Assembly (NCBI GenBank): GCA_943736015.1
Contig: OX031059.1
Span: forward strand, 20,702,501 to 20,766,500
Length of the DNA stretch: 64,000 nucleotides
Origin: Tridacna crocea
Lineage: Eukaryota > Mollusca > Bivalvia > Cardiida > Cardiidae
Direction: 5' to 3'
The notes beneath the pieces are model-generated. The model searched no databases. It was not told the origin of the DNA and saw only the letters and a program-made list of their open reading frames with translations. Shown here in pieces: positions 865-51,198 of the stretch (position 1 is its first letter; each line of letters opens with the position of its first letter). The position numbers and the translations under genes were made by a program.

Positions 865-1272
865 CTGTGTCGCCAGCATAAAAAGAATGAATTGGTAATT
901 CAGCTTTGTTTGTGATATAACCATCATCGATTCTCCAGACTTCATCGTTTTCATCACAGTTACAAGGTAGGGAGCTGTTGTAACACGAATTCGTTTCCCC
1001 ACATCTACAGTTACCGCTGCCAGGTGTGGCACCACCAAAGTAATTCGTCATTTGTTCCGTCCTGTTCATCCAGAAAGTGGTCAACATGTCCGGGTTGAAA
1101 GGATTGTGGATAATAGCCGCAAAACATTCCCAACTCATGTACTGTTTACATTCAGCGGAGGAGTCGATTATTGCAATAGCTTCAGCCCAGCCAACAAAGT
1201 AGTCCAGGACAATTTGAAACTCCCCTGCGCCTTCGTAACCTTTCACTCGAGTCCTGTTTTCATGGTTGTGGT
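865..1272 (-). CDS. Exon 30: fibrinogen-like (CNTNAP-type) domain, second part
   Basis: The acceptor is TTTCTGTTATAG|ACCACAAC and the donor is GACACAG|GTAGTA; 408 bp, phase 1-1. Joining to the previous exon gives TVIHHNHENRTRVKGYEG. Later motifs are SAECKQYMSWECFAA, WMNRTEQMTNYFGGA, CRCG, LPCNCDENDEVWR, DDGYITNKAELPI and AGDTG, the family order. A competing acceptor at 1253 would break phase, so 1272 was chosen. The rest of the domain and the stop codon should follow on the left but no convincing exon was found between 1 and 860. Confidence 0.85.
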
Positions 1273-4200
1273 CTATAACAGAAATTTATGTGATGTTGTC
1301 TTTTTCTTTATGTTTACCTTCCAATCACACGTATACAAACCCTGTTAAAATATCTATATTCCACCGCATTTGAAAAATATTTTAAGCAAAAAATATAAAT
1401 AGCTTTGATGGTAATAAGTTTGAGTGAGCTGTCAAATAGCTTTGATGGTAATAAGTTTGAGTGAACTGTACAATTGTGATAAAAGATATATCGTTACTAA
1501 TATAAACAAAGAGATACCTCATAAAGAAACGTTTTTCCAAGGGAAAATAGAAAATCACAGTTGTATGTATGCATGTATGTATGTATGTATGTATGGTAGG
1601 TTGGAGTCTAGGCATATCAGGCATTTACCTTCGTTAGAATGAGTATATGATTTGTTCTAGTACAGATAGAAATTCTAATTATGAGTACATGTAGAGCCAG
1701 AATCCACGGAACTGAAGTTGTAACATACGTATAACGGTGAGTGCTTTTCCTGGTTCTGAATCAAAATCGCATTCAACTTCTACAGGGCCAAACGCCATGC
1801 CTTCCCCATCAGGATCTATGTCAGCAATGCAACTCTGGTTCAATCCCATTGATGCCCACTCTGCGCAGTGAATAGCTATAAAGCAGAATATGGTTGAATT
1901 GAAGGGTAAATAAAACATACACAGGAAAACCCCCAACAAGATACAACCGGAACGTAAGGCAACAACATTCCACATTTATAACATGGTTTTAAATTGAGTT
2001 GAAGATATACATGCATGTATATTAAATTTATATTTACGCTTTTTTTCTGCGAAAGCTTTATGCCATTTTCATTACATTACGAGATTTTACACAGATTCGA
2101 ATCAGAAGTACCTATATGTCATAGGCTTCATTTTAGGAATTAATTATGTTCTCTGACTTTCTGTCATATGGACATGTTTGTAAACAAAATACGCAGCTTG
2201 AGGCACATGAAGAACCACGCTTTTATTCACAAAGAACAGTGAATCAAGGCAATTGAAACAGTCGAGTGGCGTTTGTAAAGGAAGCCATCATGCGAAATTA
2301 ATGATTTAAAAGAAAAAAGGTTACGATATTCAAGTATTGGCTTGAAATAAAAATTACAAAGCAAACTAATACCCTTTTTAGATGAAGGGAGAGTACTCAT
2401 GACAAAGTTTGGATTATTTTTGTGGACTCCCTTAAATGATTTAAGAGGCGATAGGAGTAATGTCCTTTGACAGTAGGATGCATGATTAAAGGGACAATAT
2501 ATAAATATATAAATAAATCGAACGAACTGAAGTTTGTTCTTGGAAATTATAATTTTGAGTTATCTTTGGCCATAAAGATCTGACACCAAATACTACAGTC
2601 AATTATTTTAATCTATAAATTATATTTATGCACAATCAGAGCGTGTATCGCGCAATTATTGGATGAATAAGCCAGGAAGAAACTGGTTTTGTTACGAAAG
2701 AGCCCGGAACCAAGTGATAAAATTTCGTGTCTATCATTGTGCCAATAGAAGGCTATGAGTTGGTGAATCTACTTTCAACCAAAAGGAAATATTTCTACAA
2801 TCGATGGCTAATTGAATGGTGTGCTGTGCTAAGTCACGTTTTCATTACACCATATGTCTTGAACGACAGATTACTTAGGTACCAGTAATTTATAAATATC
2901 GCTTTTTGAAAGACAAGTTTGCTCTCCTGCAATGCATTACGCGTGGTTCATACAGGATGGTGTTACAGCACTATGTACATCTGATACTGGGATAGACTCG
3001 GATAGACTTCTCATACGATAAAGTCGGTGATAGGTTTATAATAGAGATTTCTAGCTTTTACGGTTCACGGTTGACGGAGACGAACTTGCACCGAAATCGG
3101 GGGTCATCTCAAACTTTTTACATGTTTACAGCGATTTTGGGAAGCCGTGTACGGTGTAGGGTGTCGGTGAGTGACGATTCGGATTTATAAATCTTATCGG
3201 CAAGCAAAACGCACTAATCAGGAAATGATAAATCAGCGCCTATCCCGGCTAACATGCGATATTGCTAGACATCACTTTGCTGACCCAGAAATGCAAGTAT
3301 GTTTGGATCTTATGGTACCATGACCGTCAACAATGTTCTGCCTATGGATTGCATAGTAATGTCAATGACCCGAATAGAACTGCTCCTGTGGTTCATTTTT
3401 CGGATGGTTAATTTCGTATGAGATTCGATCGGTGGGCCCCACGGCATTAGGAATTTTGTTCCAGGAATCCCTCATGGCAATCACAATTCTCTGGCCAAAC
3501 ATAAGTGAAATAAGGGTAGTCTAAATGTAACCGTCACACTCAAGACTTAGATACGTCTAGTAAAGGGACGACAGAAAAGGAGAATGCATTTCTTTCATTG
3601 TACGCGTCCTCGGCATCTCTCAATAATTAGGACATGTCTTTAAATTTATATAAGGTTAGGCAGCGGTCCGATTAATTCTAAGAACATACATACGAGTAGT
3701 CATCTGACAGAGTGGTATTAAAACAGTTTAACCGAATAGGATTGTTGTAGCTAATAATTAAAAAAAATACAGGGAAAAATCACGTTTATGACAGATAGAC
3801 AAGGGGCAAAGCACAGATGCATTTAATGGAAGGGAGGTAAAAAGGCGAACTTTCTCTTCAAATTTTGTGATTATTGTGTTTGATTTTGTTTAAATTTTGA
3901 TTTGCATTTGAAAGAAAAAGAATATAAAGTGATAAATCAACTGCCGCTTCTAGATGCCCCTCCACGCAAAAAAAAAAACCACACGTTCACCTAAAAGAGA
4001 ATGACCGTTCGGAAAGCATGTGCATATTGTGTTACAATCGCTACATTTGAGTACAAAAACATGGGGAAGGTGGAAATAATGCCGGTAAGTGAACACTTTG
4101 TTTTGCAGCGCGAAAATTTTCAAGCATGGGGCTCGAGACAGCCCTTTGCTACATAAACACAAGGACGATCGGAGATTGCTTGAATAAAGGTGCTTATGCA

Positions 4201-40200: not shown

Positions 40201-43200
40201 GGCATTCGGACATTTGTGCAAAGTGTCGTCACGGATCAACCTCTGCAGTCCGTGCAGGCTAATCAAAACGTCACTTTCGTTTATATGTAATTTTCTATTT
40301 TGCGAAAGTCTTTTGAAGCACAAAATGTATTCATTATACTGCAAAGAAATTTCTCATGATCTGATTGGTTAACATGCCGGGAAAAAAAAAACATGTAAAG
40401 CCAGTTTCCCTTTTGAGTGAAACATCACTACACTTGCAACACAACATCCAAAATGTCGGCGTCGATCAATCACCAGACTGCACGTTTATGTACCAAACTG
40501 CACGATATCATTGAATTGGGGCACACAGAAGGGAATTTCTATTTCGTCAGCATACTCAATTCGTGAAATTATAAAACAGGAAAATTTCGCTTAATGCGCT
40601 TTGAAAGGGTAAAGCTTTGCAGTATAATGAATTCGTTGTACGGTCAGGTGGCAGGGGACTTGGAAACTTGTTCACGGCTGTGGTGAATCATTCAGGTTTA
40701 ACAATGGGCATATAAGTTTCATGTAGTTTATTTTCCATGTTAACTCTTTCCCTACTGCACACGACACATCACTCCTTAGTGGGCAATGTAGATCAAGATC
40801 AGACTGCACAGAAGGTGCAGTCTGATTTCTTATCTACACTATCCACTCTTCTTTACTAGCTCGTGACCAAACTGTGTCTTCATCTTGCTGTGTAACTATA
40901 CTTGCTGCCATTGAAAATATGTAGTTTATTTATATGGTAGTGAAAGACTGAAGACTTAAATAGTACATCACGGATCTCTGCGTTCATTATTTCTACTTTA
41001 CGCAGGAGTAATTCTGGAATTGTACTACACAGAGTGGGAGTTCCTACCTTACACAACAATGTTGGAGTTTCCTAAAGATTCCTACTTTGTGTACAAGGGT
41101 GCACAAAATGTCCAAACAGAGTAACCTCCCTTAATTTTCAAAATGCAACAAATTGTTATAAAGCATTTTTACCAAAAATAGATAAATAATAGATAGTAGA
41201 AAATAGATAAGAAATTATGTTTCTATATATATAAAGATAAAATGAAATGAACCATGCTCTCTAAATAAGGAGCTTAATGCATTTGCGAAAAGTATCGATT
41301 CAGGTCAGCCTGCGCAGTCCGCGCAGGCTGACCTGAACCGATGCTTTTCGCTATTGGTCACTTTTCTCATTATTCATTAAAATGTTGCGAAAAACGGATT
41401 TTAGGCATGCATAATTGTGGCGCTGCATGTGCGGCGGCACTGTATTTTTATTCGCTTTTGAAAAGTACCTATGGAGGCAGCCATATTGTTAACCTTGCTT
41501 CCAGCGATTTCGTAACTAGGTGTTTTCGTTCCTAAGCCATTTCGTACCCAAGTTTACTTTTTTATTTTGATCATTTTGTACTCAATTCGATAATTTCGTA
41601 ACCACTTTGGTCATTTCATAACCTGTTTTTAATATCAATTCGGTAATTTAGAACCTAGTTTTACGACAACTGCTTTTGTATACATCTCAAACTGAAATTT
41701 GTTAAATTTCGCCGAAGAATGCTATAACTGTGTCCTATCTTTATTGTTTCTTTCTTTTTGATTTTTTTAGTTGCATTCTATAGATTATTTAGGGATTCTC
41801 AGTTCATTTCTCATCGAGTTCTGCATAAATTTGCTCTGGTCATTTTTGGAATGATGTAATGTCCCTTATTTCAGAAACAACTGATTTGCAGCGCCATTGA
41901 TGTTACACATCAATATTTTCTTGTTATAATATTGTAATTACTGACTCGGTATCATGCATCATGTAGATGCATTAAGCCCCTTTTTTACCAGAGCATGACT
42001 CAAAATAAAAAAAAGCTAGCCTAGGTAAACAAATGCAAGCGTCCTAGTCTCTCCAAGAACGCCACAGTACTTTACCTTTTACCCAAGAACAGAGTTTTAG
42101 ACTCGGCCAAACTCATAACATATGTATACAACAACAAAAGCAGAGACACAAATGACTGAATTTGCTGTTAAATTTGTTTTAAAAGCCGATTATGGATAAA
42201 GAACAAAGTGCTGCTTACCAGCATTTTCTCGTTTTACGGTCTGTATGGTAATTAAATTTTGATCTTGGATTGGTCAAGGTAAACTGTCGCGGTTGGGGGT
42301 TGGCTTAACTTTAACTATAAAGACTACACTACTGCTAGTTATAAAGCTATAGATACAAAATATACTAGGCAAAATTATATGTCAAACTCTCATACCTGTT
42401 CGTGATTAGTCTAATGCATACGTGATTGAATAAAAATGATACTAGTTAAGTGAAAACATTATTTAAAGAAACTTGGACATCGATCTAATTGTGTTACACT
42501 AAATGCGGATGGTCCTTGTTTTGTTATAAGGTTTTTTCATACAGAAAATAAACAAAGGCATTGTTCGGCTATGATCTTGATCTTCTTTGTATATAAAAAG
42601 GAAGTCTGGTGTTGATCTATAACGTCTACAAAAGCAAAGTTGTGAATAACGGCCGAATTCAATTTGTATATCGACAATGACTTCATGTAACCATATAACA
42701 CGAAGCAGACGGAGAATGACCATGAATGTCTGTGGAGAAATCAAGCCCGTTTTTTCTTTTTTTATTGATCCAAATTTATAAAGATATAATTTCATATTGG
42801 AATAATCATTTTGGGCACATTTTGGAATCGTGAAAAGTGTTTACTGCCAATGTTTGTATACGGTCTCTCAGTTCAGTAGCGAAAACCGTCTAAACAATGC
42901 CTTGTGGTGTCTGCAAATGTCGCATTCTTCCAAGATTGTCAATTTTTTAGAAAAAAAAGCCACCTTGGAAAAGATAGTACCCAGAATGCTCAAGGCAGAT
43001 AGGTCAGTTTTTGAAAAATCAGACCTAGTAGCAAATAATGACCCTTGTGGTGCATAAAAAGAAGATGAACATCTACAATACATCGACTTGATCCGTAATT
43101 TCCAAACAGACGCTGTACGTGCATGTAGTGCGAGAATTTTACAGAGAACTTACTTGGGCACATAGGTAGTTGGCAGTGTTTAAACTGGATGTCGTCCCCT

Positions 43201-46200
43201 TTACAAGGAGTTCCCCCAAAGTTTGGGGGTGGATGTAGACACTCGCGAGTTCTTGTCCGCGTACCATTTTCACACGTGACGTCACAGTCACCCCATGAAC
43301 TCCAAAGGCTCCATCCACCACGAACTAAGAAGTGCACGATTCAAAAGTAGTCATTAGTACACTTTCAAATACCAATCATCTCATGTTAACTCTTTCCCAA
43401 ACGACAAAAATTTAGACTTGTCCAAATTGAAAGCATTAGCAGACGACAAATTAAACATAACTCAAAATTTGAAATTTGTTGCAAGTAGGGTAGAAAACAT
43501 TGTGGGAAAAGGAGAAAATGCTGGTTAGCAGCATTTTCTCCTTTTCCCACATTGTTTTCAAAAGCTTTCTTCCTCAGGGTCGTTAAAAGTCGGGATTGTG
43601 TGGTAAAAAGTTAAAAGACCCCGAGGAAAAAGGTTCCTCCAACTATCAGCAAAGATATACTGAGTGCACGTTCGTTAGATAGCTTTAAATAGATAGATTG
43701 TTATATTTTTGCAATAAAAAAAAATGGAGATCAACAGGCAGACAGGCGGACGAAAAGATGGATAGCAAATGGAGAAATAGGCAGATACATGTAGATTAAG
43801 AATAGACTTAAAAAAGATAAACTTAATATATATATTTGAGAGGGAGAGAGAAAGAGTGAACACTTTTTTAACGAGACAATGGCCTACAAATAAACAAATA
43901 GACAGGACATGATTTTTTGGTGGAAAATAATCGCACTCTCTATATTTACCCCTACAACGGATGCCGCCAAGTAAAGTACAGTCCTCAGCTTCTTTTCTCT
44001 CACATGCCTGAATGGTTTTCTCCGTGCCATCACAAAACAATGATCTAATGTGAAACGTGTTTGCGGTGTCAGTAGTATTATATACCGGATACCACGTGTC
44101 ATCCGAATTATTGGTATCGTTCCCTGGGTCCGAATCTACCAAAAAGACAAACGAATAATAAATGCACGAAGAAAATAAAACTCAAAGTACTGTTTTTGAA
44201 AAAAAGAATTAATCCCGACTAGTTTCTTTAAGCCTTTTTCATAAACATTATATTATATTATGAACGCTGATCAACATTGCATGACGTCATATCCCACTCT
44301 TATATCAAGTTGCCCGCCCTGCTGGCTCAGCGGTGAGCGTGTCGGACTCATGACCTGGTGGTTGTGAGTTCGATACCCGGTTGAGGCGAACTTTCTTTCC
44401 GGCGTATTTTCGCCTCCCACCTCTGCTGAAGCATGTGAGAAAAGTAGTTGGTGGCTTTGGAAAGAAAGTTGTGTTAGTTCCGGTGTGAGAAAGCCAGGAA
44501 ACACATGTGCGTCACCGACCGCCATGATATGACCTTAGCCGTTAAAGTGGCGTTAAACCCCAATACAACCAACCAACCAACCAATCTTATATCAATTTAA
44601 ATATCGTCGGTTTACTCTCAAAACCTCGTAACTACAGCTTGTAACAAGCTGTAGTTACGAGGTTTTGGAAGTAAATCAACGATATAACTGAACTTAAAAG
44701 ACCACCTGATGCTAGAGACCATTCTCTTACTTTCCATGGGTGGTCCCTGAATACAGGTTTTGACTGCATATACTGCATATACTCATTAATTGGTCTAATC
44801 TGAAGAAAAAACATACGTGTATAAGCTCCTTCAAATCCAATCTGTTTACACGCAATGTCCATTTCATTGACTCCCCAACGTTCATCTGCGCACACTGATA
44901 TTCGTATACCCATGATATCATCCAGTATCTCAATACGCCCCTCTCCGTGCTTGCCTATGTCCTGGAGCAGCAGTATACCTTTAAGTATAATAGAATGGTA
45001 ACAGTAATATAGAACCCACTTTTTTTACATATCTGCCCCGTCACGCAAAAAGGGACCATCTGGAAACTGCGGAAAGTGTCGACCCCGATCAGACTGCGCA
45101 GATTGCGCAGGCTGACCATGGTCGAAACTTTTCGCTTTTATGATATTTTCTGTCAATTGGTTGAAAATTTCTGAAAATTGGTCATTCTACCTTACTATAC
45201 AAACATTTCTGAACTATCAACTTATATTGATCTGCACTATCTTTGCTCTGTTTTCATCTAAATGATGACACGGACTTCCCAGATTGTCCCCTTTGCACGG
45301 CGGGTCACAATGTTATTATATAAAGGTAGACTATGACCGACGTACTGATATAAGAATGTTAAAACTCTTTGGTGATCCATTATGAAGAGAAATAATGAAA
45401 ATAAACCGCACCAGCAACTGTCCTTATTTCCTAATTATCTTCATATTGTTGATCAATTGAATTTTTAAATTCAAATTCCGAAAATTATATAAAACTGACA
45501 AAAATGCCAATACGAAATACAAAGACTTATGTTGATAAAACTGATAAAAATGCCAATACGAAACACAAAGACTCATGTTGACATAATTTTGACCCGGATA
45601 ACTCACCGTCACAGTTTATCCCTCGACAGGGAGCTGTCTCGTTTGTAAACCCGAGACAAAATCTGTCTATTCCGGGAACGCCGCCATTGGAGCATGTTCG
45701 ATACCTGTTTTTAAACCCACGGCCACATGTGTTCTCGGTCGAGCAGGCTTCCCATTCTTGCCAAGGTTCCCAGCCTTAAGGGAGAAATAAACAGTATTAC
45801 ACTTGAAATGAAAACTTGAACTATAAATAAACAATATCATGACTGACGAAAATTAATCACATCTATCAATCTTTCGGTGAAATTCACCACCGAAATCCAT
45901 AGACCACGTTAAATATTGAACGTACAGCTTATTTGTAAACAGAAATGCATCTACAGAGACTTGGGTAAAAATTGAGACTGTTGTTTAAATTTCCTAAAAG
46001 TAGCCTTACAATTTGAAGAACGGTAAAGCGGTGTATTTCCGACAAAGAAATTGTATATTGTGTAGGTGCAAATCTTCCACCGTATTACATCAAAGAGATT
46101 TGATCAACGGATCAACAGGGCTTTTCCAGATGGCTTCAAGGCTCAAATCATCTGTATTATAGTTACATATAACCAAAACATCCGCATAAAACGGGCAATG

Positions 46201-49200
46201 AAGTCTCGTTTGAAAAGCTTTTAAAATATGAAACATTGCTTGTTTTCCGTTTGCGTGAAAGCATGGCGTTAAAACTGAAAAAAATAAGGTAGAAAATATA
46301 TGCAGGAAACAAAAAGACTTGCATGTTATAATATTTAAATATCGTAAAACTACCCATCCCGTTAGCAACGGTGACGCTTATATGAAAAATTAGGACAAGT
46401 AAAAAGTTTTGCAAGTACCGTATAACGAAAAAGCTAGCTTTAAAGTGTAAATAAGCAGTTCATATATCTATAATAGAAACACCAGTCTGAAAGGCAAAAA
46501 AGGGTGTCATACGTAGATATGATACAAGTAAATTGAAAGCTTCTGAGGAGAAAAGATCAGTAATGGAAGGACAAAAATAGTTAAATCGCATGATTAAAAC
46601 AATAGTCATATAAGGCAAATAGGAGGTATTCGACTTTTAATTATGCTATGAAAATACTTGCCCTAGAAGGGCAATAAACAGCATTATGATTAAGAAAAAA
46701 GCTAACTGTGCTCTCATTGTTTACTTACAAGTAAACTAGTTAAGGAATTTTTTTTTTGCCATTATCGATTCAAGAAGTTTTTGAAAGTCATCCTAGATCA
46801 AAGATCTGAGTGCAAAAATGAATGCCCACTGAAAAATTATGACCACCTTGCTGTGAAAAGCTTTTCAATAATAAGTTCCTGTGAGAGTTAAAACTGAAAT
46901 TGTACTGTTTGCTCAAGAATAAAAACGAGATTGGCCTTTTTTCGCTATATTATCGATAACATGCATTCGATAACAGAGAAATCAATCAAGGTGAAAATAG
47001 TTCAGAGTGATTGCTGTAAGTTGTAGAACTTGTTTCTTAATGTATACCAAATGAAAGGTTTAACTTTTTTCAATAAAACATGCCATTTCTTTTATAATCT
47101 TCACGATAAAACATTATTTTACAGTTTTTGAATTGCTAGTAGTGTGAAAAGACCCTTTCTTTTTGTATTTTAACATTTTATTCTTCACGTTTTGCCGTCC
47201 ATGGCTTTGGAAAACACATTCGAGAAAATGTGATAATCAGCATATTTTTCCTTGTCCAATACCCTTTTCTACACCTTTAAAGACAAATGTAAGAGTCATT
47301 TAAGCAACAATTTTAAACCATTTTAAAATGTATTCAATTTTTGTAGTCTATCAAAGAGTCAAGAAAGAGAAGTTTTAGAATGACGTCACTTACGGGGGCA
47401 TGACTGCAGAATACAGGTCTTATATTCCAGATCACGTCCGAAGCATTTCTTAGATGATACGGCTTTGTTGGTGACCAGATCTACACAGTTCCGTCTTCTG
47501 GTAGTAAATCCAGTCTCACACGTGACTGAACAAGGACCCCATTCTTCCCATTGACCCCAGCTGAGATCATTCACTGAAATGATGACATTTATTTTTTAAG
47601 ACATAATTCATGTTTTTATTTAAGTTTTATAAATGAGGTGGTTTCTTTGGAAAAGAAGTCAGTAGAGGTAGGCATCAGTGTTTACAAATAGTTTATTGGC
47701 TATCAATTTCAATTAATTTTGGTACATGTAAATAAATAACTTGGATACTCAAAACATGAAGGAAAAACGCAGCTTAAAAAACTTTTATGCAGTACATGGC
47801 AGTCACATGACCTTCATTCCGCGTTTCCAAGTCGCGTGATCTCTCTCTTTTTTAACGAAATTCTTTTTTGTCCTTTTGCTTAGATTATCCAGCTTAATAG
47901 AAAAATCAATTATGAATCAAATCAATAGAATTAATCTCTTTTGAAATCCGTCAAAGAAAAACAAACAAAGCCTATTTCCTATTTCAGTTATTTTATTTCG
48001 GTTCATTTAGGAAATCATGACGAAATAGACTGTGTTAGAATAGTTTTACAAAGATAATAATGCATTTAGACAGCAATTTCTGAAACAGTCTCCTTTTAAT
48101 TTCACCACTGTTGGAGAGGTCTGATGACCTCTCCAATCATATTTCATTGAATAAATTAACAGAAATACAACCATCATATTTGTGCTTATTTCAACCTAAT
48201 GATAGGCCTATCTGTTAAAACTCATTTATCTTCGCAATGTACTAGCATTTGAAAAATTGTGATGATCCTGAAGATACCGGTATAAAACAGATGTGTTCCA
48301 ATATCCATGCACGACCTTAAACGAGGTGAGATATTTTGTCGGTAAAAAACTTGAATTAAATGAAAAAGATAATTTGTCGGTAGAATCTGGTTTTTTTTTT
48401 TTTTTTTTTTTAATTCTTGAAATTATATTCAAATACTTTTAGTCAAGTTTTTTCCACTCTACAAAGTTTTCGCCAAAATTGTCTGTTCGTTTAAATTGTG
48501 ATTCGTTTAGATCCTTATCGGTTTCACTCGCTATTGTGTCTATACAGCGTATTCATCCTTTCTTGACTTCTATATAGAACACTTACAGATGTCAATAATT
48601 ACCAGTGCTCATACGTCCTGAAAAGAATATGGTAACTAAGTTAACAGATCATTTTTATATTTACATATTCCCACTCAGGCTAATCAAATCGTGTAAGTCT
48701 AATAACTGGACTAGAATAATATGATTTCAAAATCATCCAGGATATTCGCATTGGTACTATCGTGTTTCTAAATCTGAGTGTGTGCTTTTGTGAATTTCTT
48801 TGTGCTTTATTACTTGATTATCAGGATAAGAGTATCATCGGAGACAATAAGGGAGAAGGATAGAAGAAACGCATCGCGTGCCTTACTTTTTAGCTCACAG
48901 TTTATCCCAGTCCATCCGTCTGAACAGAAACAAAAATAAGTACGCTTTCCTCGGGCAGTCATCGTATCAAGGCATCGAGCTCCATTTTGACAGGGATCTT
49001 GTGCGCAAGGACCCAGTGCTTCCTGTGACAAAATACGAACATTTTAATAAATGTCAACGAATTTCTCGAAAATATATTATTTCATTTTTTTCTTTTCACA
49101 AAAAAAAGAAAGCTAAAATCCAGAATTTTTTATGAACGGACAAGAAATTACTACAACAAGCATACTTATTCAATGTGACAAATTGTTTTTACCCTTGTTG

Positions 49201-51198
49201 AAATACTAATATTTTCAGTTTCATAAACTAATGTTTATTCCTGGTGTTCAATGCTATTGGACGATTTTACTTTTTTTTACATAAAGTTATCTTATCTTCA
49301 GATGATCAAGGAGGTCGAATTTAAATTAAGTATTAAAGCTTTTAAGGGGAAAAACGTGTTAATTTTCACCAACAATAAAAAAAGAAATTAGTAAATATTA
49401 CGAGTAATTGTTGTTGTTGTTGTTATTTACTTGTTGAAATAATTTATAAGGCAATGAAGGGGAAAAGGATAATATCTGGATCTGTATTCACCACCGGTTC
49501 TTCAGAGTGTTCTTATAGATCTTTTAGAAAAAAGTAACACAACTCCTCATTTGCTGAACCATTTGGTTTAGCCAATCAGACGTTGTGTTTCTTTCAAATA
49601 AAAAAAAAGGATAAGAGTAAGAACTGAAATTGGGATGAATTAAAGGTCAAACATGAAATTTATAAGAATAATGAATGAACGAGTGTTGTTTTATGGTGCA
49701 TCGACAGCTATGATCATTTAGCGCACATCTCTGTGTTAAAAGATAATAAAACTGGAGTCGTTTTAACTGAATAAAGTTTGAATACACTAATGACAAGAAA
49801 AGAATTGAATTAAGAAGTATGCATAAAAGGCATTATCGAGTTACAGGGCAATCCCTATATATACAAAAGTTTTAAATTATAAGAACTGAATTAAGAAGTA
49901 TGCATAAAGGGTATTTTTGAGTTACAGGGCAGTGCCTATAAAAAGGTTTGAAGTCAATGTTTGGTTGATAAAAAGACGTTTTGAAATGAAAAGGAAATAT
50001 GTATCACTTATAATGTGCATAAAATATGATATTAAGTGGCTGGGCAATCCCTGCCTACTCAACAGTTTTAGATTAAAAGGTAAGACTGATAATATTGCTT
50101 TTTCTTGGAAATGACGTTAAAACTGGTAAAGATTGTGAAGCCTCCAATGGGATCAATATACTCCCATTAAAGAGGTCCTGTCTCCTATGAGATAAGATGC
50201 CCCCAAGAGGGCTAATCCTCCCATTAAGGAGATGCAAACTGAATATAAAAGAAGTAAAGAATGTTGTAAAAAGATGGGTAAATATCACAGCTTATTGTAA
50301 ATGCCAATCTCCTTTATGAAAGCGGTAATAGATTCAACGCTGACAGAATCAAAAAGATTCTTCAAACTATCGATGTTGAAATACTTTGAACGAACTGGCT
50401 GAATGTCAACGCAAACTAATAGAATATGTTTTACTGAACAGGTTGCATTGCATGGTATACATTCAGGGGCATCATCTGTGGTCAAGAGCCAGGAATGTGT
50501 GATGCGTGACTGGCCAATTTGAAGCCGTGCAATAATCACTTCATCTCGACGAACGGACTTGTAAACGGGGTACCATTCACCAAGGGATGGTTTAACTGAA
50601 TACAGTTTATTGAAAACATCAGCATCCCACTGGGATTGCCAAGAAGACTGGATATGTGTTAAAACGGAGGATTTAAAATCAGTGTGTGGAACTTTAAAAT
50701 CTGAAATGGGAAGGTTAAGTGCAGATTTGGCAGACCTATCAGCATTTTCATTGCCTTTGATGCCTACATGACTTGGAAGCTACCAGAACACCAATCTATT
50801 CTTAGAAGGAATTTTATAAAAAGTAGATTAGAACCAACCTGATCAATAGAAAACGCATTTCTGTGATAATATTCTGTACTGTGACTTGGTTCTTCGTCAA
50901 CTAGACTGACATTACTTTGTTCATGGTCCGCGTCGTTAAGCTGACAAACAAACCCGTCTGGTTCGTAGTTTATGGACCTACAACGACTTGACTTCAGACA
51001 TTCGTACGCACATTGAATTACTTGTCGTTTGGTGGAAAACTCCTCAAAAACATGGCCAACAAGTCTTTTACCGGGATAAGATAAGTTTCCATTTATCATG
51101 AATTCATACACTTTAATATCTGTGTCACAAGATGTAAATATAATGTTGGATAAAATCACAAAAGAAACTCCTAATATCACCTTAGAAAATGTCTCCAT
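865..51198 (-). CDS. Large secreted PAN-EGF-TSP1-SRCR-TSP1(n)-fibrinogen-like protein, whole gene span (3' end off or unresolved)
   Basis: Thirty exons on the minus strand join in frame: signal peptide plus PAN-like domain, EGF-like, TSP1 x2, SRCR (two exons), TSP1 x22, and a fibrinogen-like CNTNAP-type domain (two exons). Splice sites were placed by eye from AG/GT borders and phase agreement. The first junction is phase 0 and all later ones are phase 1. Coding length in the window is 5395 nt. The signal peptide, the disulfide-rich modules and the absence of any membrane segment in the placed exons indicate a secreted or matrix protein. Most TSP1 units keep the WxxW tryptophan ladder (C-mannosylation motif) and the CxxTC motif used for O-fucosylation in this family. 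I infer an adhesion or recognition role. The general layout is like coadhesin- or hemicentin-like invertebrate proteins, but orthology is not established. The C-terminus and stop codon are not resolved. Confidence 0.85.
1401..1470. repeat. Tandem duplication, two copies of about 38 bp
   Basis: The unit (AGCTTTGATGGTAATAAGTT plus GAGTGARCTGT) occurs twice back to back in the intron between the two fibrinogen-like exons. The copies differ at very few positions. Confidence 0.8.
1562..1594. repeat. TATG microsatellite
   Basis: About eight TATG units with one interrupting GCATG lie in the intron between exons 29 and 30. Confidence 0.85.
1729..1875 (-). CDS. Exon 29: fibrinogen-like (CNTNAP-type) domain, first part
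   Basis: The acceptor is CTTTATAG|CTATTCAC and the donor is GTTATAC|GTATGT; 147 bp, phase 1-1. It contains IHCAEWASMG, DIDPDGEG, FGPVEVECDF and ALTVI, as in the start of fibrinogen-like domains of contactin-associated-like proteins (CxE...G...DPDG....PFxVxCD...TVI). Confidence 0.85.
1876..3038. other. Intron sequence, nothing recognised
   Basis: AT-rich start of the 9-kb intron. No exon with conserved cysteine or tryptophan spacing and no clear repeat was seen on either strand. Confidence 0.5.
3041..5936 (-). mobile_element. Decayed PIF-Harbinger-like DNA transposon with terminal inverted repeats
   Basis: The two ends match in inverted orientation for about 43 bp (outer part ATAGAGATTTCTAGCTTTTA, then CGGTTCACG and GACGGAGACG). 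TA lies directly outside both ends; a 3-bp target duplication typical of Harbinger could not be aligned cleanly. On the minus strand near 3260-3510 a frame reads EQFYSGH, HYYAIH, NIVDGHGTIR and GS, the pattern around the first catalytic Asp of DDE_Tnp_4 (Harbinger) transposases, interrupted by stops. Near 5750-5800 a frame reads DSDSEEVPTTRRR, like the N-terminal end of such proteins. The C-terminal catalytic part is missing. It lies in the intron between exons 28 and 29. Confidence 0.7.
4683..4935. mobile_element. Nested 250-bp mariner-like MITE
   Basis: Nearly perfect 29-nt terminal inverted repeats start TATACTCTCTCAAAAAAGAA and end at ACGCAACAT on both sides. TA borders suggest a Tc1/mariner-type target. 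It lies inside the Harbinger-like element, so it inserted later, and has no coding capacity. Confidence 0.8.
5937..6376. other. Intron between two transposons, nothing recognised
   Basis: A stretch of 440 bp separates the Harbinger-like copy from the 4.15-kb element. It contains a short AC run near 6301 and no coding or repeat signal that I recognise. Confidence 0.5.
7440..7648 (+). mobile_element. Diverged copy of palindromic TTAA MITE, family A
   Basis: This segment matches the right half of family A (TTTTCTACCCTTCACAAAAC, GTCTGCAAATGCTTT, TTTGGTAATGAGTTA). It accounts for the 106-codon ORF here, which is therefore not a gene. Confidence 0.65.
8934..9310. repeat. Tandem duplication of about 185 bp
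   Basis: Two adjacent copies begin GAGAAGGCAGTGCTATCAAC and end GATCTGTCCATGAGCACA. The second copy (from 9108) has gained a run of about 25 T (9140-9166). Both lie inside the 4.15-kb element. Confidence 0.9.
10531..10940. other. Intron end before exon 28 acceptor side, nothing recognised
   Basis: A stretch of 410 bp between the right end of the transposon and exon 28 with no recognised feature other than the splice donor of exon 28. Confidence 0.5.
10941..11117 (-). CDS. Exon 28: TSP1 repeat 24 (177 bp, last TSP1)
   Basis: The acceptor is CTGTTTTCAG|TACCTGG and the donor is CTAG|GTAGGT, phase 1-1. The unit reads VPGLWDAWSNWTLCSVTCGG, then NRTC, then an extended middle loop, ending TFNCLP. 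It is four residues longer than the array units. A 9-kb intron follows. Confidence 0.87.
11364..11528 (-). CDS. Exon 27: TSP1 repeat 23, last 165-bp unit
   Basis: The acceptor is AAATTTCAG|TCGACGG and the donor is CCAA|GTATGT; 165 bp. The unit reads VDGVWLDWEPWQECSTTCGG, ending KDPCPS. Longer ORFs in other frames overlap it and are shadows. Confidence 0.88.
11804..11848. repeat. Short inverted repeat in intron
   Basis: AACTTTTGATTGGCTA and its complement TAGCCAATCAAAAGTT face each other across about 12 nt, forming a 16-bp stem. Confidence 0.8.
12108..12243 (+). mobile_element. Remnant of palindromic MITE family A
   Basis: A diverged match: AAGAAGACTTTTGAAAACAC, then GGAGAAGGGGAAAT, GCATTTTCTTCTGTTCCCAT and GTTTTCTACCCTTTC. 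Confidence 0.5.
12393..12557 (-). CDS. Exon 26: TSP1 repeat 22
   Basis: The acceptor is CGTTTCAG|TGGACGG and the donor is CCAG|GTAACT; 165 bp. The unit reads VDGIFLEWSTWGECDVTCEG, ending THECPG; Trp1 is Phe. Confidence 0.9.
13142..13370 (-). mobile_element. Palindromic TTAA MITE, family A, full copy
   Basis: The copy runs from TTAACACTTTACCAAACGAC to TTTGGTAAAGGGTTAA. Its centre is GAAAATGCTGGTTACCAGCA within a longer near-perfect palindrome flanked by ACATTGTGGG and CCCATGATGT. TTAA borders both ends. It has no coding capacity. Confidence 0.85.
14040..14140. mobile_element. Probable remnant of palindromic MITE family A
   Basis: A diverged hairpin centre: GGAAAATGGGGAAAAATGTA, then ATGTTTTCAAAAGCTTTTCA, as in the right arm of family A. 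Confidence 0.4.
14471..14519. repeat. Short inverted repeat in intron
   Basis: GAGACGGTAAAATTTTCCAG pairs imperfectly with CTGGAAACTAATACCGTCTC across a 7-nt loop. Function unknown. Confidence 0.75.
14622..14786 (-). CDS. Exon 25: TSP1 repeat 21
   Basis: The acceptor is CTTTTTCAG|TTGATGG and the donor is CCTG|GTCAGA (GT present, weak consensus); 165 bp. The unit reads VDGVWMEWSEWEDCPVSCGG, ending THNCPG. Confidence 0.88.
15105..15560. mobile_element. Family F element interrupted by a family B MITE
   Basis: The left part reads GCAGTGTAGATTCAAGG to CACACTGTCCGATAAGCATA. Family F resumes after 15482 as ATAATAACGTTTGGGTTTCT. The family B copy at 15253-15482 sits between them, giving a clear order of insertion. 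Confidence 0.6.
15253..15482 (+). mobile_element. Palindromic TTAA MITE, family B, full copy
   Basis: It runs from TTAACCCTGTACCCCATAAG to GGAGTAAAGGGTTAA. The centre AATTGCTCGTCACGAGCAAT extends into a near-perfect palindrome of about 55 nt (AAAGGTG to CACCTTT and beyond). Confidence 0.85.
15733..15942 (+). mobile_element. Palindromic TTAA MITE, family B, second copy
   Basis: It runs from ATAACCCTTTACCCTATAAG to GGAGTAAAGGGTTAA with the same central hairpin. It lies 250 bp from the previous copy in the same orientation, with a slightly shortened left arm. Confidence 0.85.
16185..16412 (-). mobile_element. Palindromic TTAA MITE, family A
   Basis: It runs from TTAACTCTTTCCCAAACGAC to GTGTGGTAATGTGTTAA, with centre GAAAATGCTGGTTAGCAGCA. 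Confidence 0.85.
17195..17359 (-). CDS. Exon 24: TSP1 repeat 20
   Basis: The acceptor is CGTTTTTCAG|TGGACGG and the donor is CCCG|GTATAA; 165 bp. The unit reads VDGIWAPWSQWEECDVTCGG, ending DFPCPG. Confidence 0.9.
17724..17888 (-). CDS. Exon 23: TSP1 repeat 19 (two ladder Trp lost)
   Basis: The acceptor is CTAATGCAG|TCGACGG and the donor is CCAG|GTACGC; 165 bp. The unit reads VDGVLSEWSEFYECSVTCGG, ending TQNCPG. Trp1 is Leu and Trp3 is Phe, while the six cysteines and the CSVTC motif remain. It resembles its neighbour at 17195-17359 (TQWRNRTC and IQWRNRTC), suggesting local duplication. Confidence 0.87.
18040..18488. other. AT-rich intron with weak internal repetition
   Basis: Between 18090 and 18240 a loose unit (CAAATTG or CAACTTTA with AAAGTGTT) recurs several times. 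No exon is seen before the donor of exon 22. Confidence 0.4.
18489..18653 (-). CDS. Exon 22: TSP1 repeat 18
   Basis: The acceptor is CAATGCAG|TTGATGG and the donor is CCAA|GTAGGG; 165 bp. The unit reads VDGIWHEWSDWEQCSLTCGG, ending THFCPS. Confidence 0.9.
19135..19520 (-). repeat. Dispersed repeat family G, minus copy
   Basis: It shares with 40326-40690 and 54207-55322 the blocks GGCAGGGGACTTG, CCCCAATTCAATGA, GCGCCGCCATT and CAGAAATTTCTTTGCAGTAT (here inverted). Family unknown. Confidence 0.6.
19798..19962 (-). CDS. Exon 21: TSP1 repeat 17
   Basis: The acceptor is TATTTTACAG|TCGATGG and the donor is CCAA|GTAGGT; 165 bp. The unit reads VDGIWDEWQTWSVCNTTCGG, ending THECPS. Confidence 0.9.
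20609..20773 (-). CDS. Exon 20: TSP1 repeat 16
   Basis: The acceptor is ATACTTGCAG|TGGACGG and the donor is CCGA|GTAAGT; 165 bp. The unit reads VDGVWNPWTNWTECTHTCGT, ending THNCPS. Confidence 0.9.
21389..21553 (-). CDS. Exon 19: TSP1 repeat 15
   Basis: The acceptor is ATTTTTCAAG|TTGACGG and the donor is CCAG|GTAAGA; 165 bp. The unit reads VDGQWSLWTKWSMCNVTCGG, ending HECPG. Confidence 0.9.
21885..22825. repeat. Degenerate minisatellite, units of about 40 bp
   Basis: About twenty or more diverged units of the form ATTTAACCGNGGCAACAG, TTTACATTGTCACCATGCTC follow one another through the intron between exons 18 and 19. The repetition also creates short plus-strand ORFs (22551-22826) that are not supported as genes. 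Confidence 0.8.
23302..23466 (-). CDS. Exon 18: TSP1 repeat 14
   Basis: The acceptor is CCACAAAAG|TTGATGG (weak pyrimidine tract) and the donor is CCAG|GTATGT; 165 bp. The unit reads VDGVWSSWTEWDECPVTCGG, ending IYPCPG. Pro replaces Ser in the CSVTC motif. No convenient start codon lies in the frame, so simple ORF calling misses it. Confidence 0.87.
23810..24115. mobile_element. Family F element with internal duplication
   Basis: A block of about 65 bp (GATTCTAGTGAC, ATGRAAATTAGGACC, GGACACT) is repeated, followed by the family F hairpin (GATCTGCACTGTCCGATAAG, GAGATATTATTCCCCAAAAC). Confidence 0.6.
24828..24992 (-). CDS. Exon 17: TSP1 repeat 13
   Basis: The acceptor is TAAATTAG|TACACGG and the donor is CCAG|GTAATT; 165 bp. 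The unit reads VHGLWNPWVAWSECSTTCEN, ending IMCPG. His replaces the usual Asp after the split Val. Confidence 0.88.
25915..26012. mobile_element. Partial family F element
   Basis: A diverged copy ending CTTGGATCTGCACTATCCGC lies directly against the TTAA border of the family A MITE that follows. Confidence 0.45.
26013..26241 (+). mobile_element. Palindromic TTAA MITE, family A
   Basis: It runs from TTAACTCTTTACCACACAAT to TTTTGGTAATGAGTTAA, with a central hairpin around GGGAAAACGCTGGTAACCAG. Confidence 0.85.
26242..27631. other. Intron sequence, nothing recognised
   Basis: AT-rich, with a G-rich tract near 26603. Short ORFs here lack codon-like conservation or splice context. Confidence 0.4.
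27632..27796 (-). CDS. Exon 16: TSP1 repeat 12
   Basis: The acceptor is TTTGATTCAG|TTGATGG and the donor is CCAG|GTACCC; 165 bp. The unit reads VDGIYSEWSTWSVCSHTCGR, ending PSSCPG; Trp1 is replaced by Tyr. Confidence 0.9.
28385..28549 (-). CDS. Exon 15: TSP1 repeat 11
   Basis: The acceptor is ATAATTTAAG|TTGATGG and the donor is CCAA|GTAAGG; 165 bp. The unit reads VDGVWNPWTNWTDCTVTCNT, ending TDPCPS. It is close in sequence to the unit at 20609-20773 (both VDGVWNPWTNWT). Confidence 0.88.
28550..30230. other. Intron sequence, mostly unrecognised
   Basis: The stretch holds a diverged trace near 29390-29590 that resembles the right end of the TTAA MITEs (CAGACGACAAC, GGTCGTTAAAA), and a TATA-rich run at 29960-30040. 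Confidence 0.35.
30235..30516 (-). mobile_element. tRNA-derived SINE-like element
   Basis: On the minus strand, TTTGGCTCAGTGGTTATGG resembles a tRNA A box and AAAGGTTTGAATCC a B box about 60 nt later, followed by an unrelated body. No cloverleaf is preserved, so it is a SINE relic rather than a tRNA gene. Target duplications were not identified. Confidence 0.55.
31280..31444 (-). CDS. Exon 14: TSP1 repeat 10
   Basis: The acceptor is AATTTGTAG|TGGATGG and the donor is CCCA|GTAAGT; 165 bp. The unit reads VDGEWAPWQAWGACNVSCGG, ending EHNCPS. Confidence 0.9.
31445..32555. other. Intron sequence, nothing recognised
   Basis: 1.1 kb between exons 13 and 14. ORFs on both strands overlap each other and show no domain. 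Confidence 0.4.
32556..32720 (-). CDS. Exon 13: TSP1 repeat 9
   Basis: The acceptor is GATTTTCAG|TCGATGG and the donor is CCAG|GTACGT; 165 bp. The unit reads VDGVWDDWSSWNTCNASCGG, ending IACPG. Confidence 0.9.
32721..34173. other. Intron sequence, nothing recognised
   Basis: 1.45 kb between exons 12 and 13, AT-rich with no clear repeat or exon. Confidence 0.4.
34174..34338 (-). CDS. Exon 12: TSP1 repeat 8
   Basis: The acceptor is ATTGTAG|TCGATGG and the donor is CCAG|GTATGT; 165 bp. The unit reads VDGVWDSWQSWLSCNVTCGG, ending HPCPG. Confidence 0.88.
34679..34843 (-). CDS. Exon 11: TSP1 repeat 7
   Basis: The acceptor is ATTATTGTAG|TTGATGG and the donor is CCTG|GTTAGT; 165 bp. The unit reads VDGVFTDWSTWSDCSVTCAN, ending EECPG, with Trp1 replaced by Phe. 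The acceptor plus the first 13 or so exon bases are copied twice more in the upstream intron (34966 and 35100). Confidence 0.9.
34831..35215 (-). repeat. Triplicated intron end including a splice acceptor
   Basis: A unit of about 123-134 bp occurs three times, each containing CCATCAACTACAATAATAA, AGCATGGAAACG and CATCTTTAGACAGCAACATT. The first copy contains the true acceptor of exon 11 at 34843; the others place AG|TTGATGG at 34966 and 35100. Each later copy therefore carries a few exon bases but not the exon body. Confidence 0.88.
35737..35901 (-). CDS. Exon 10: TSP1 repeat 6
   Basis: The acceptor is AATGTTTAG|TTGACGG and the donor is CCAA|GTAAGG; 165 bp. The unit reads VDGTWNYWTEWDECSVSCGG, ending EHNCPS. 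Confidence 0.88.
35902..36535. other. Intron sequence, nothing recognised
   Basis: 634 bp between exons 9 and 10. A loose recurring block (TCAATATT, ATTATAATTTT) is seen at 35960-36260. Confidence 0.35.
36536..36700 (-). CDS. Exon 9: TSP1 repeat 5
   Basis: The acceptor is CTTATCTAAG|TTGATGG and the donor is CCAG|GTAAAT; 165 bp. The unit reads VDGVWGDWSTWTDCSHTCGY, ending AFSCPG. No ATG-started ORF covers it in the right frame. A palindromic MITE begins within about 20 bp of the acceptor. Confidence 0.88.
36716..36943 (-). mobile_element. Palindromic TTAA MITE, family B, next to exon 9 acceptor
   Basis: It contains AATTGCTCGTCACGAGCGAT and ends CTTATGGGGTGAAGCGTTAA, the reverse of the two family B copies near 15.3-15.9 kb. 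Its left end lies within about 20 bp of the exon 9 acceptor and has lost the TTAA. Confidence 0.8.
36951..37028. repeat. Near-perfect 78-nt palindrome, family H
   Basis: Arms of about 37 nt (GTCGGTTTA, then CCTCGTAACTACAGTTTG) fold back with almost no loop. It is shared with 44601-44686. Confidence 0.85.
37547..37711 (-). CDS. Exon 8: TSP1 repeat 4, first 165-bp unit
   Basis: The acceptor is CTTATCTAG|TCGATGG and the donor is CCAG|GTACGA. The unit begins VDGVWEDWSLWSECDVTCAN and ends MCPG. It is the first of twenty consecutive units of identical length. Confidence 0.92.
37975..38006. repeat. TAC microsatellite
   Basis: About ten TAC units with one CGA interruption, in the intron between exons 7 and 8. 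Confidence 0.85.
38205..38430. mobile_element. Family D element, degraded
   Basis: It holds CCATGCTCTGTAAAAAAGGG, GCTTAATGCATCTCCG, and further on GGCTGACATAGGTCGATACT and TTTGCAGATACATCAAACCC, matching the family D arms. Confidence 0.5.
38608..38825 (+). mobile_element. Palindromic TTAA MITE, family A, diverged
   Basis: It starts TTAATCCTTTACC, has the centre GAGAAAATGCTGGTAACCAG and ends near TTTGGTAAAGTG. Confidence 0.75.
40197..40285. mobile_element. Partial family C element
   Basis: It reads AATGGGCATTCGGACATTTG, then CTCTGCAGTCCGTGCAGGCT, matching one end of family C (fuller copy at 53596-53835). Confidence 0.55.
40326..40690 (+). repeat. Dispersed repeat family G, plus copy
   Basis: It reads TTATACTGCAAAGAAATTTC, CAACATCCAAAATGTCGGCG, ATTGAATTGGGGCACAC and GTACGGTCAGGTGGCAGGGG, in the same order as the copy at 54.2-55.3 kb. 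Confidence 0.65.
40745..40850. mobile_element. Family F element, partial
   Basis: A hairpin: GTAGATCAAGATCAGACTGC, then GTGCAGTCTGATTTCTTATC. Confidence 0.65.
41252..41350. mobile_element. Family D palindromic element
   Basis: A near-perfect hairpin: AAAAGTATCGATTCAGGTCA and GCCTGCGCAGTCCGCGCAGG, then the complementary arm ending CGATGCTTTTCG. Confidence 0.75.
41351..43153. other. Intron sequence, mostly unrecognised
   Basis: The stretch holds a family D end near 41950-42005 (ATGCATTAAGCCCCTTTTTT) and a family A trace near 42190. The 98-codon minus ORF at 42499-42795 has no recognisable domain. Confidence 0.4.
43154..43324 (-). CDS. Exon 7: TSP1 repeat 3 (171 bp)
   Basis: The acceptor is CACTTCTTAG|TTCGTGG and the donor is CCCAA|GTAAGT. 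The ladder is WSLWSSWGDCDVTCENG. The middle loop is proline-rich (HPPPNFGG). This is the first TSP1 unit after the SRCR domain; a 5.4-kb intron separates it from the uniform array. Confidence 0.88.
43386..43614 (-). mobile_element. Palindromic TTAA MITE, family A, full copy
   Basis: It runs from TTAACTCTTTCCCAAACGAC to GTGTGGTAAAAAGTTAA, with an almost perfect central palindrome of about 65 nt. It lies in the intron after the SRCR domain. Confidence 0.88.
43950..44135 (-). CDS. Exon 6: SRCR domain, C-terminal half
   Basis: The acceptor is CTTTTTGGTAG|ATTCGG and the donor is AGGG|GTAAAT; the exon has 186 bp and is phase 1-1. It reads SLFCDGTEKTIQAC, then EDCTLLGGIRCRG, the usual SRCR tail. 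Together the two halves hold six cysteines, as in group A SRCR domains. An Asn/Asp/Thr-rich insert (DSDPGNDTNNSDD) sits just after the intron. Confidence 0.83.
44309..44584 (+). mobile_element. tRNA-derived SINE with 11-bp target duplication
   Basis: The A-box-like TGGCTCAGCGGTGAGCG and B-box-like GTGAGTTCGATACCCGG are in tRNA order, followed by a body and the tail GGCGTTAAACCCCAATACAA with CAAC repeats. TCTTATATCAA at 44298-44308 and again at 44585-44595 is a perfect target-site duplication. It inserted opposite to the gene in the SRCR intron. Confidence 0.9.
44601..44686. repeat. Near-perfect palindrome, family H, second copy
   Basis: ATATCGTCGGTTTAC, then CCTCGTAACTACAGCTTGTA, folds onto its own complement. 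It matches 36951-37028 and lies directly beside the SINE target duplication. Confidence 0.85.
44817..44978 (-). CDS. Exon 5: SRCR domain, N-terminal half
   Basis: The acceptor is ATACTTAAAG|GTATACTG and the donor is ACAC|GTATGT; the exon has 162 bp and is phase 1-1. It contains GRIEIL, VCADERWGVNEMDIACKQIG and FEGAYT, matching the SRCR start (GRxEhh, VCxDxW, xxCxQLGF). It is completed by the exon at 43950-44135. Confidence 0.85.
45046..45312. mobile_element. Family E element
   Basis: It starts CACGCAAAAAGGGACCATCT, has a central hairpin around CAGACTGCGCAGATTGCGCA, and runs to GCGGGTCACAA. It matches 59478-59745 over its whole length. Confidence 0.75.
45486..45585. repeat. Tandem duplication of about 48 bp
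   Basis: ATAAAACTGAYAAAAATGCC and AATACGAAAYACAAAGACT occur twice in succession. Confidence 0.85.
45607..45774 (-). CDS. Exon 4: TSP1 repeat 2 (divergent, 168 bp)
   Basis: The acceptor is CTCCCTTAAG|GCTGG and the donor is GACG|GTGAGT; both ends are phase 1. The reading begins WEPWQEWEACSTENTCGRG and continues NRYRTC to GINCD. It has an extra residue in the first Cys loop (CSTENTC). Its ORF lacks an early start codon and is easy to miss. Confidence 0.8.
46094..46280 (-). other. Candidate alternative terminal exon of the TSP1 gene
   Basis: After a good acceptor (CTTATTTTTTTCAG) a frame of 62 codons opens in phase 1, the phase left by TSP1 repeat 1, and ends in TGA. It reads TPCFHANGKQAM and later HCPFYADVLVICNYN. 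If used, it would give a short secreted PAN-EGF-TSP1 form. There is no recognised domain, and a chance ORF is quite possible. Confidence 0.2.
47194..47300. mobile_element. Remnant of palindromic MITE family A
   Basis: A diverged match: TTTGGAAAACACATTCGAGA, then CTTTTCTACACCTTTAAAGA. Confidence 0.4.
47394..47573 (-). CDS. Exon 3: TSP1 repeat 1 (divergent, 180 bp)
   Basis: The acceptor is CATTTCAG|TGAATG and the donor is CCCC|GTAAGT; both ends are phase 1. The W-x-x-W ladder reads WGQWEEWGPC, followed by SVTCETG. Six cysteines are present. The middle loop is longer and unlike the later units, so this belongs to the older N-terminal set. Confidence 0.85.
47574..48886. other. Intron 2, nothing recognised beyond a T run
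   Basis: AT-rich 1.3 kb between the EGF and first TSP1 exons. It has a run of about 22 T near 48391 and a small inverted repeat around GGAGAGGTC/GACCTCTCC near 48113-48135. Confidence 0.5.
48887..49022 (-). CDS. Exon 2: EGF-like domain
   Basis: The acceptor is TTTTGTCACAG|GAA and the donor is CTAAAAA|GTAAGG. The exon has 136 bp and changes phase from 0 to 1. It holds six cysteines in EGF order (GPCAQDPCQNGARC, then YFCFCSDGWTGINCE), with the typical G-W-T-G-x-x-C ending. It lies between the PAN exon and the first TSP1 exon. No calcium-binding consensus is seen. Confidence 0.85.
49798..50095. repeat. Degenerate tandem repeat, about three units of 90 bp
   Basis: GAATTAAGAAGTATGCATAA, then GAGTTACAGGGCARTSCCTA, recurs at about 49803 and 49890, with a weaker third copy from about 50010. 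Confidence 0.7.
50115..50800 (-). mobile_element. 5'-truncated non-LTR retrotransposon (LINE), 3' end
   Basis: On the minus strand a frame reads PSHVGIKGNENADRSAKSAL, the end of an RNase H domain. It continues to RLQIGQSRITHSWLL and CIPCNATCSVKHILLVC, the zinc-knuckle-like tail of LINE ORF2 proteins, ending EIGIYNKL at 50288. A 3' UTR follows with CCTCTTTAATGGGAG-type repeats. An in-frame stop lies before the PSHVG motif. The truncated 5' end is about 40 bp downstream of the exon 1 donor, in the same strand as the gene. Confidence 0.8.
50839..51198 (-). CDS. Exon 1: signal peptide and PAN/apple-like domain
   Basis: This exon has 120 codons from the ATG at 51198 and ends phase 0 at GATCAG|GTTGGT. 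Residues 1-25 form a basic-then-hydrophobic signal peptide (METFSKVILGVSFVILSNII) with probable cleavage near TSC-DT. Residues from about 45 to 115 carry a PAN/apple-like pattern: CAYECLKSSRCRSINYEP followed by GFVCQL. The next exon starts in phase 0 at 49022. Reading past the donor reaches intron sequence and then a LINE remnant. The 5' UTR and promoter were not identified. Confidence 0.8.

Follow-up and report, generated by a model that had tools for sequence, protein, structure and literature searches.

Several of the described proteins closest to the gene considered here come from molluscs. The byssal TSP-1 protein of Pinctada fucata contains 24 TSP1 repeats, a low-complexity region and a vWFA domain (PMC4597212), the oviduct protein SRCR-OP of Littorina bears one TSP1 and two SRCR domains, plus a CTLD in one species (PMC8614816), and in Crassostrea gigas TSP_1 ranks first among the partner domains listed for SRCR proteins (PMC10855680, Table 1). 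Thrombospondins proper (THBS1-5/COMP) have a C-terminal EGF, type 3 repeat and L-lectin region, and properdin consists of only six consecutive TSP1 domains (PMC7663992); CNTNAP2 combines an F5/8C domain, four laminin G domains, two EGF domains, a fibrinogen-like (FBG-like) domain and a transmembrane segment as membrane anchor (PMC13152795). The subject of this study is a 64,000-nucleotide stretch of Tridacna crocea DNA (GenBank assembly GCA_943736015.1, contig OX031059.1, hereafter C4; C4:20702501-20766500), referred to as the window, the minus strand of which probably carries a single gene encoding, in this order, a PAN domain, an EGF-like domain, two TSP1 modules, an SRCR domain, 22 further TSP1 modules and a CNTNAP-type FBG-like domain. 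Positions in the window are counted from its first base; searches of the genome covered 1.05 Gb.

No description of the full order (PAN-EGF-TSP1x2-SRCR-TSP1x22-FBG) was found in searches of open full texts, and to this extent the preliminary description of the locus, which had called the order unusual, holds good. Its parts, however, have precedents. In SRCR-OP and the C. gigas SRCR+TSP_1 proteins, as in the window gene, TSP1 is combined with SRCR within a single mollusc protein, although SRCR-OP has them as a single TSP1 with two SRCR domains and the oyster table lists partner domains rather than full orders (PMC8614816; PMC10855680). A second TSP1-SRCR neighbourhood lies in the same genome at C2:32033600-32036766, where a TSP1 match (E 8.5e-8) is followed ∼3 kb away on the same strand by half of an SRCR domain (E 3.3e-10), with further TSP1 and SRCR matches around them, and simpler genes running from a PAN to an FBG-like domain are also present (see below). 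The P. fucata byssal protein shares with the predicted product of the window gene its secretion and its 24 TSP1 modules; it differs in having a low-complexity region and a vWFA domain, while PAN, EGF, SRCR and an FBG-like tail go unmentioned in the account of its domains (PMC4597212). The tail domain is held in common with the CNTNAP/Caspr/neurexin IV proteins, among which the window protein cannot be counted: it has the FBG-like domain and one EGF only, with no F5/8C or laminin G domain detected by Pfam and no transmembrane-like segment. It is not a thrombospondin proper either, since Pfam detected no C-terminal region of that kind in the first 509 residues or in the last 262, between which lie TSP1 exons, and with 24 TSP1 modules plus PAN, EGF, SRCR and the tail it is not properdin. 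TSP1 repeats are common to the window protein, properdin, thrombospondins, ADAMTS and SCO-spondin; to our knowledge, none of these four has a PAN/EGF/SRCR head together with a CNTNAP-type tail. The gene appears, then, to elaborate on a known type of protein and not to be wholly new.

Modelled exon structure and domains on the minus strand

Thirty exons were modelled in the window on the minus strand, from position 51198 down to 865, which places the N-terminus at ∼51.2 kb and the C-terminus towards the low end. Exon 1 (50839..51198) holds the start codon, a signal-peptide-like segment recognised by eye and by hydropathy, and the PAN domain (residues 1-120; PAN_1, 34.6 bits against a Pfam cut-off of 21.4), and ends in a phase-0 donor. 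Exon 2 (48887..49022; residues 121-165) encodes the EGF-like domain (Pfam EGF, 31.1 bits against 21.5). TSP1 modules 1 (47394..47573) and 2 (45607..45774) precede the SRCR domain, which is spread over two phase 1-1 exons (44817..44978 and 43950..44135). Pfam SRCR scored 38.0 bits when these two exons were taken alone and 32.4 bits within a 509-residue piece (cut-off 26.1), placing the domain in the SRCR superfamily, and PDB sequences (PIT54, LOXL2) were matched as well. Group A of this superfamily has six cysteines forming three disulphides (PMC10855680); with six cysteines counted in its sequence, the window domain is a candidate for this group. TSP1 module 3 follows at 43154..43324 and, after an intron of 5442 bp, the remaining modules lie at 37547..37711 (module 4), 36536..36700 (5), 35737..35901 (6), 34679..34843 (7), 34174..34338 (8), 32556..32720 (9), 31280..31444 (10), 28385..28549 (11), 27632..27796 (12), 24828..24992 (13), 23302..23466 (14), 21389..21553 (15), 20609..20773 (16), 19798..19962 (17), 18489..18653 (18), 17724..17888 (19), 17195..17359 (20), 14622..14786 (21), 12393..12557 (22), 11364..11528 (23) and 10941..11117 (24, which is 59 residues long and has a CLPL end). 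A still longer intron of 9065 bp precedes the two exons of the CNTNAP-type FBG-like domain (1729..1875, phase 1-1, and 865..1272, ending at a phase-1 donor at 865), which were assigned by their match to tails elsewhere in the same genome; these two introns are the longest of the gene. The domain order given in the preliminary description, as well as the 5.4-kb intron it mentioned, is thus confirmed by the Pfam matches and the minus-strand exon model.

A profile of 11 TSP1 modules of the window detected the 24 TSP1 exons (E 1e-11 to 5e-28), and all 24 scored above the Pfam TSP_1 cut-off of 21.6 bits, 18 of them in a genome-wide scan and modules 24 (42.8 bits), 1, 2, 9, 13 and 17 when run separately. 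The genome-wide TSP1 scan comprised the best 150 of 541 candidates, and the corresponding SRCR scan the best 150 of 299, so that absence from either means little. Each module has six cysteines, as expected of the TSP1 (TSR) superfamily, W-x-x-W is present in 23 of the 24, and 21 fit an O-fucosylation pattern. Mean identity of a module to the others ranged from 36 to 51%; a recent expansion of the array was considered and rejected on these low values. A TSP1 array of another build lies at C8:9707743-9711366, where 12 TSP1 matches, among those listed, fall in one open frame of 1629 residues, an intronless arrangement unlike that of the window gene.

All 30 donors in the model are GT and all 29 acceptors AG, and the donor phase is 0 in one case and 1 in the other 29; these counts are partly a matter of construction, exon ends having been picked as GT/AG and in phase. 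Two further counts are independent of exon picking. In 21 of the 24 TSP1 exons an AG stands at exactly position -11 relative to the first codon of the module, while AG occupies 5.3% of minus-strand positions, and a GT directly follows a 165-nt exon in 20 of the 24 (GT, 5.9% of minus-strand positions). The sole phase-0 joint is that between PAN and EGF, and every modelled joint after it is phase 1, which means that any TSP1 or SRCR unit could be gained, lost or skipped with the frame left intact. Extracellular modules that have been shuffled are expected to be joined in phase 1. At 34833-35214 a 132-bp unit is repeated three times in tandem and overlaps the acceptor of TSP1 module 7, so that this 3′ splice site region appears triplicated.

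The product would be 1825, 1815 or 1820 residues long, depending on which of three candidate terminal exons (T1 to T3; see below) completes it; with T2 it would contain 172 cysteines and 45 N-x-S/T sites and have an isoelectric point of ∼4.5. Hydropathy analysis of the modelled protein revealed no second strongly hydrophobic stretch that might act as a transmembrane segment, the best 19-residue mean outside residues 1-30 being 1.29 compared to 1.88 in the signal region. The earlier suggestion of a large secreted protein therefore agrees with its signal-peptide-like start, the lack of another strongly hydrophobic segment, and its cysteines and N-x-S/T sites; as read from its sequence, the product, of ∼1820 residues, is probably secreted, rich in disulphides and heavily glycosylated.

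Probable continuity of the gene and its relatives in the genome

The best overall explanation, which we hold to be moderately probable, is that one minus-strand gene spans all of these modules, and that it grew and works as proposed below. The preliminary description had also treated the modules as one gene, a view supported by the phases of the joints, the lack of Pfam domains in the open reading frames (ORFs) of the long introns, and a direct TSP1-to-tail junction in a related gene on C9. An alternative is that two or three adjacent genes have been wrongly joined, for instance one encoding PAN-EGF-TSP1-TSP1-SRCR-TSP1 up to the 5442-bp intron, one the TSP1 array and, beyond the 9065-bp intron, a small FBG gene. 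The breaks this proposes do coincide with the two longest introns, and C17 offers examples of FBG genes that lack TSP1. However, when gene-strand ORFs of at least 48 residues were compared with Pfam, none of the 17 in the 5442-bp intron or the 25 in the 9065-bp intron had a match at E≤0.1, and the joints across both introns fit phase 1. A strict search for first exons encoding a signal peptide also found none in either intron; this is a weak test, since exon 1 itself and most real donors would fail it (9 of the 30 real donors pass). A relaxed search, which does recover exon 1, returned candidates that start with ATG, are hydrophobic and have a phase-1 GT, at 38419 in the 5442-bp intron and at 6335 and 5686 in the 9065-bp intron, none of them with a donor of the strict kind. 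The 5442-bp intron has 0.18 such candidates per kb and the 9065-bp intron 0.22, compared to 0.73, 0.38 and 0 per kb in three control introns; the density in the long introns is thus not above that of the pooled controls, and separate starts are not favoured. The C9 gene couples a TSP1 directly to an FBG-like tail, which again speaks for continuity, and on balance the joining of separate genes is considered improbable. The ORF at 5932-5465 was examined as a possible hidden domain and rejected, its match to Pfam Fz (E 0.039) being under the cut-off; the ATG inside it, at 5686, stays a first-exon-like candidate.

Sequences matching the tail were found elsewhere in the genome in two genes on C17 (C17:2032781-2059400, C17a, and C17:2087301-2095129, C17b), in one on C9 (C9:13407606-13384018) and in a CNTNAP-like gene on C6. 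Identity to the window tail was 92/191 residues (48%) for C9, 100/200 (50%) for C17b and 57/194 for C6. The splice points within the tail are the same, judged by eye, in the window gene, the C9 gene and both C17 genes, which on this basis form one set. Read by eye, the C9 gene and both C17 genes also start with a signal-peptide-like, PAN-like exon with a phase-1 donor (PAN_1: C17b, 21.5 bits, just above the 21.4 cut-off; C17a, 19.0; C9, 11.8); head and tail were taken as parts of one gene from their strand, their phase and the repeat of the arrangement in both C17 copies. Between head and tail there is one TSP1 in C9 and none at E<0.01 in either C17 gene, while no EGF was found in these relatives with a strict regular expression and no SRCR with a single-sequence search. 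The lone TSP1 of C9 scored highest against module 24 (144.5; 25/54 residues identical), followed by module 16 (134.5; 25/50). Its junction with the same tail, and its best score with the module that adjoins the tail in the window, lend modest support to the TSP1 array and the tail being parts of one gene. In C17a, within 2056700-2057220, the end of the second FBG exon and its donor are present, by eye, in three tandem copies, giving three donors.

From these comparisons the genome appears to hold two PAN-FBG genes, one PAN-TSP1-FBG gene and the long form of the window; of this small PAN-to-FBG set, the window gene seems to be the most expanded. A short PAN-to-FBG gene may have given rise to the long one as phase-1 cassettes, the SRCR among them, were inserted and duplicated. 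Besides the three first-exon-like candidates given above, several observations weigh against a single gene with this history. The consensus GT[AG]AG is found in only 9 of the 30 donors, and both the signal peptide and the ends of the exons are predicted. Two of the three heads (C17a and C9) score under the PAN_1 cut-off, leaving a common head short of proof, and the PAN of the window aligns just weakly to the C9 and C17 heads; the best non-self match of its PAN-EGF part in the genome (E 2e-5) contains internal stops. By percent identity the C9 TSP1 is no closer to module 24 than to module 16, and the order of growth is drawn from three relatives. If the proposed growth is correct, the locus shows cleanly how phase-1 exon cassettes apparently built up a large extracellular protein while its apparent short relatives were kept in the same genome, and those PAN-FBG and PAN-TSP1-FBG relatives make the steps of mosaic growth testable.

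The tail domain and its candidate last exons

The tail is named CNTNAP-type fibrinogen-like because the C6 gene aligns with it at 57 of 194 residues (E 2.6e-9), with shared cysteine positions. F5/8C, EGF and laminin G exons, domain types also present in CNTNAP2 (PMC13152795), lie on the same strand in C6; with respect to laminin G, four of seven ORFs scored above the Pfam cut-off, one below it, and two had no match. The tail itself gave chance-level matches only when compared with Pfam, NCBIfam and PDB sequences (the last tried both singly and as a profile), and a structure model of the second FBG exon alone reached a predicted local distance difference test (pLDDT) value of 35, so that the fibrinogen fold of the tail stays putative. 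None of the four aligned tails matched Pfam Fibrinogen_C up to E 10, so that they do not qualify as FReD, FREP or ficolin domains. A CNTNAP-type domain standing outside the other CNTNAP parts, and matched by no Pfam model, is in itself a useful lead for annotation.

The preliminary description had given the gene the span 51198-865. The modules do lie inside it, but 865 is not the end of the gene: it is a splice donor (ACAG|GTAGTA), and a further exon is needed. Three look-alike candidates for this terminal exon lie on the minus strand 2.0-3.4 kb past the window edge, at window positions -2014 (C4:20700486), -3022 (C4:20699478) and -3352 (C4:20699148), each with an AG acceptor, the right phase and its own stop, and each able to complete the domain. 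A pattern anchored on the acceptor, run on both strands of 345,676 bases (the window plus the fetched loci, partly overlapping), matched only these three sites, the third of them with two further overlapping acceptor choices, and a single site in every one of the three further FBG genes. When the 9900-base flank was shuffled 100 times at the mononucleotide level, it matched three times in total. The pattern was designed after the exons were known, so these figures are a consistency check, not an independent test. Over a hand-picked core of six codons (GPVxCS), T2 and T3 differ by six synonymous changes and no amino-acid change, while T1 shows four synonymous differences from T2 and three from T3, with one amino-acid change in each case.

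One of three alternative last exons could thus complete the cap, and the choice among them could vary the final 17-27 residues. We tentatively propose a three-way last-exon switch from the donor at 865, providing interchangeable tips for the cap, together with a stepwise series, within one genome, that leads from a protein of two modules to a mosaic of 28 (PAN, EGF, 24 TSP1, SRCR, FBG). It is also possible, though short of probable, that two of the three exons are dead duplicates and that there is a single real C-terminus, as would fit the one terminal exon found in each of the three relatives within the stretches searched. Against dead copies stand the AG acceptor, right phase and frame open to a stop that all three retain, and the conservation of the core, in which T2 and T3 encode the same residues in spite of their synonymous differences and T1 departs from each in one codon. 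Should all three terminal exons be used, the switch would amount to an exchange of tips on a fixed adhesive rod.

Possible roles and further features of the locus

Judging from its domains, the product is most likely a secreted adhesive or recognition scaffold, and might act outside the cell as a long, stiff one. A TSP1 module is ∼5-6 nm long, so that 24 in a row would form a rod of roughly 0.1 micrometre. Such a rod would space the PAN/EGF/SRCR end far from the FBG-like cap and could present binding sites many times over along its length (W and R ladders, glycans), allowing the protein to bridge cells, matrix, mucus or particles.

Two more specific functions were considered, one structural and one immune, and were given similar weight, for a protein whose partners might be host matrix, a secreted adhesive or microbes. 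One is that of a humoral immune recognition protein (an opsonin or agglutinin), in which the SRCR, PAN and FBG-like cap would bind microbes and the TSP1 rod would crosslink them or recruit host factors. A response of SRCR genes to microbes has been described in a ctenophore and, as cited in the same work, in sponges, echinoderms and molluscs (PMC11797021), and scavenger receptors and TSR proteins have been discussed as candidates for plastid or symbiont recognition (PMC7663992). On the other hand, a search of the genome with the window SRCR matched only its own two exons, and the lack of a close paralogue is unlike the large SRCR expansions of several invertebrates (PMC10855680); taken overall, the genome has a large SRCR family (299 candidates, the best 150 of which were scored). 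The failure of all four aligned tails to match Fibrinogen_C likewise gives no sign of a ficolin/FREP-type domain, and this immune function is regarded as rather unlikely. The other, a structural protein in the matrix of a secretion (adhesive, byssal, shell or egg-capsule), is as a specific assignment also on the unlikely side: a snail oviduct protein does contain both TSP1 and SRCR (PMC8614816), whereas the Pinctada byssal protein carries a low-complexity region and a vWFA domain (PMC4597212), and no vWFA was found in the window protein by Pfam.

No Rfam match was obtained within the window. Intron 1 contains, at 50288-50779 on the minus strand, an open frame (LPSHVGIKGNENAD...) for which Pfam found no family, and which appears to resemble the RNase H terminus of non-LTR retroelements. 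The intron between the two SRCR exons includes a dispersed repeat of 253 bases (44316-44568). Among 441 first-look candidates, 40 places including the repeat itself were scored, and the other 39 were 92-98% identical to it, which points to a young and abundant element. Also between the SRCR exons, at 44601-44685, is an inverted repeat of 42 nt with 90% complementarity and a 1-nt gap. Upstream of the gene, at 56420-57066, lies a (GTTG)n repeat of about 650 bp.
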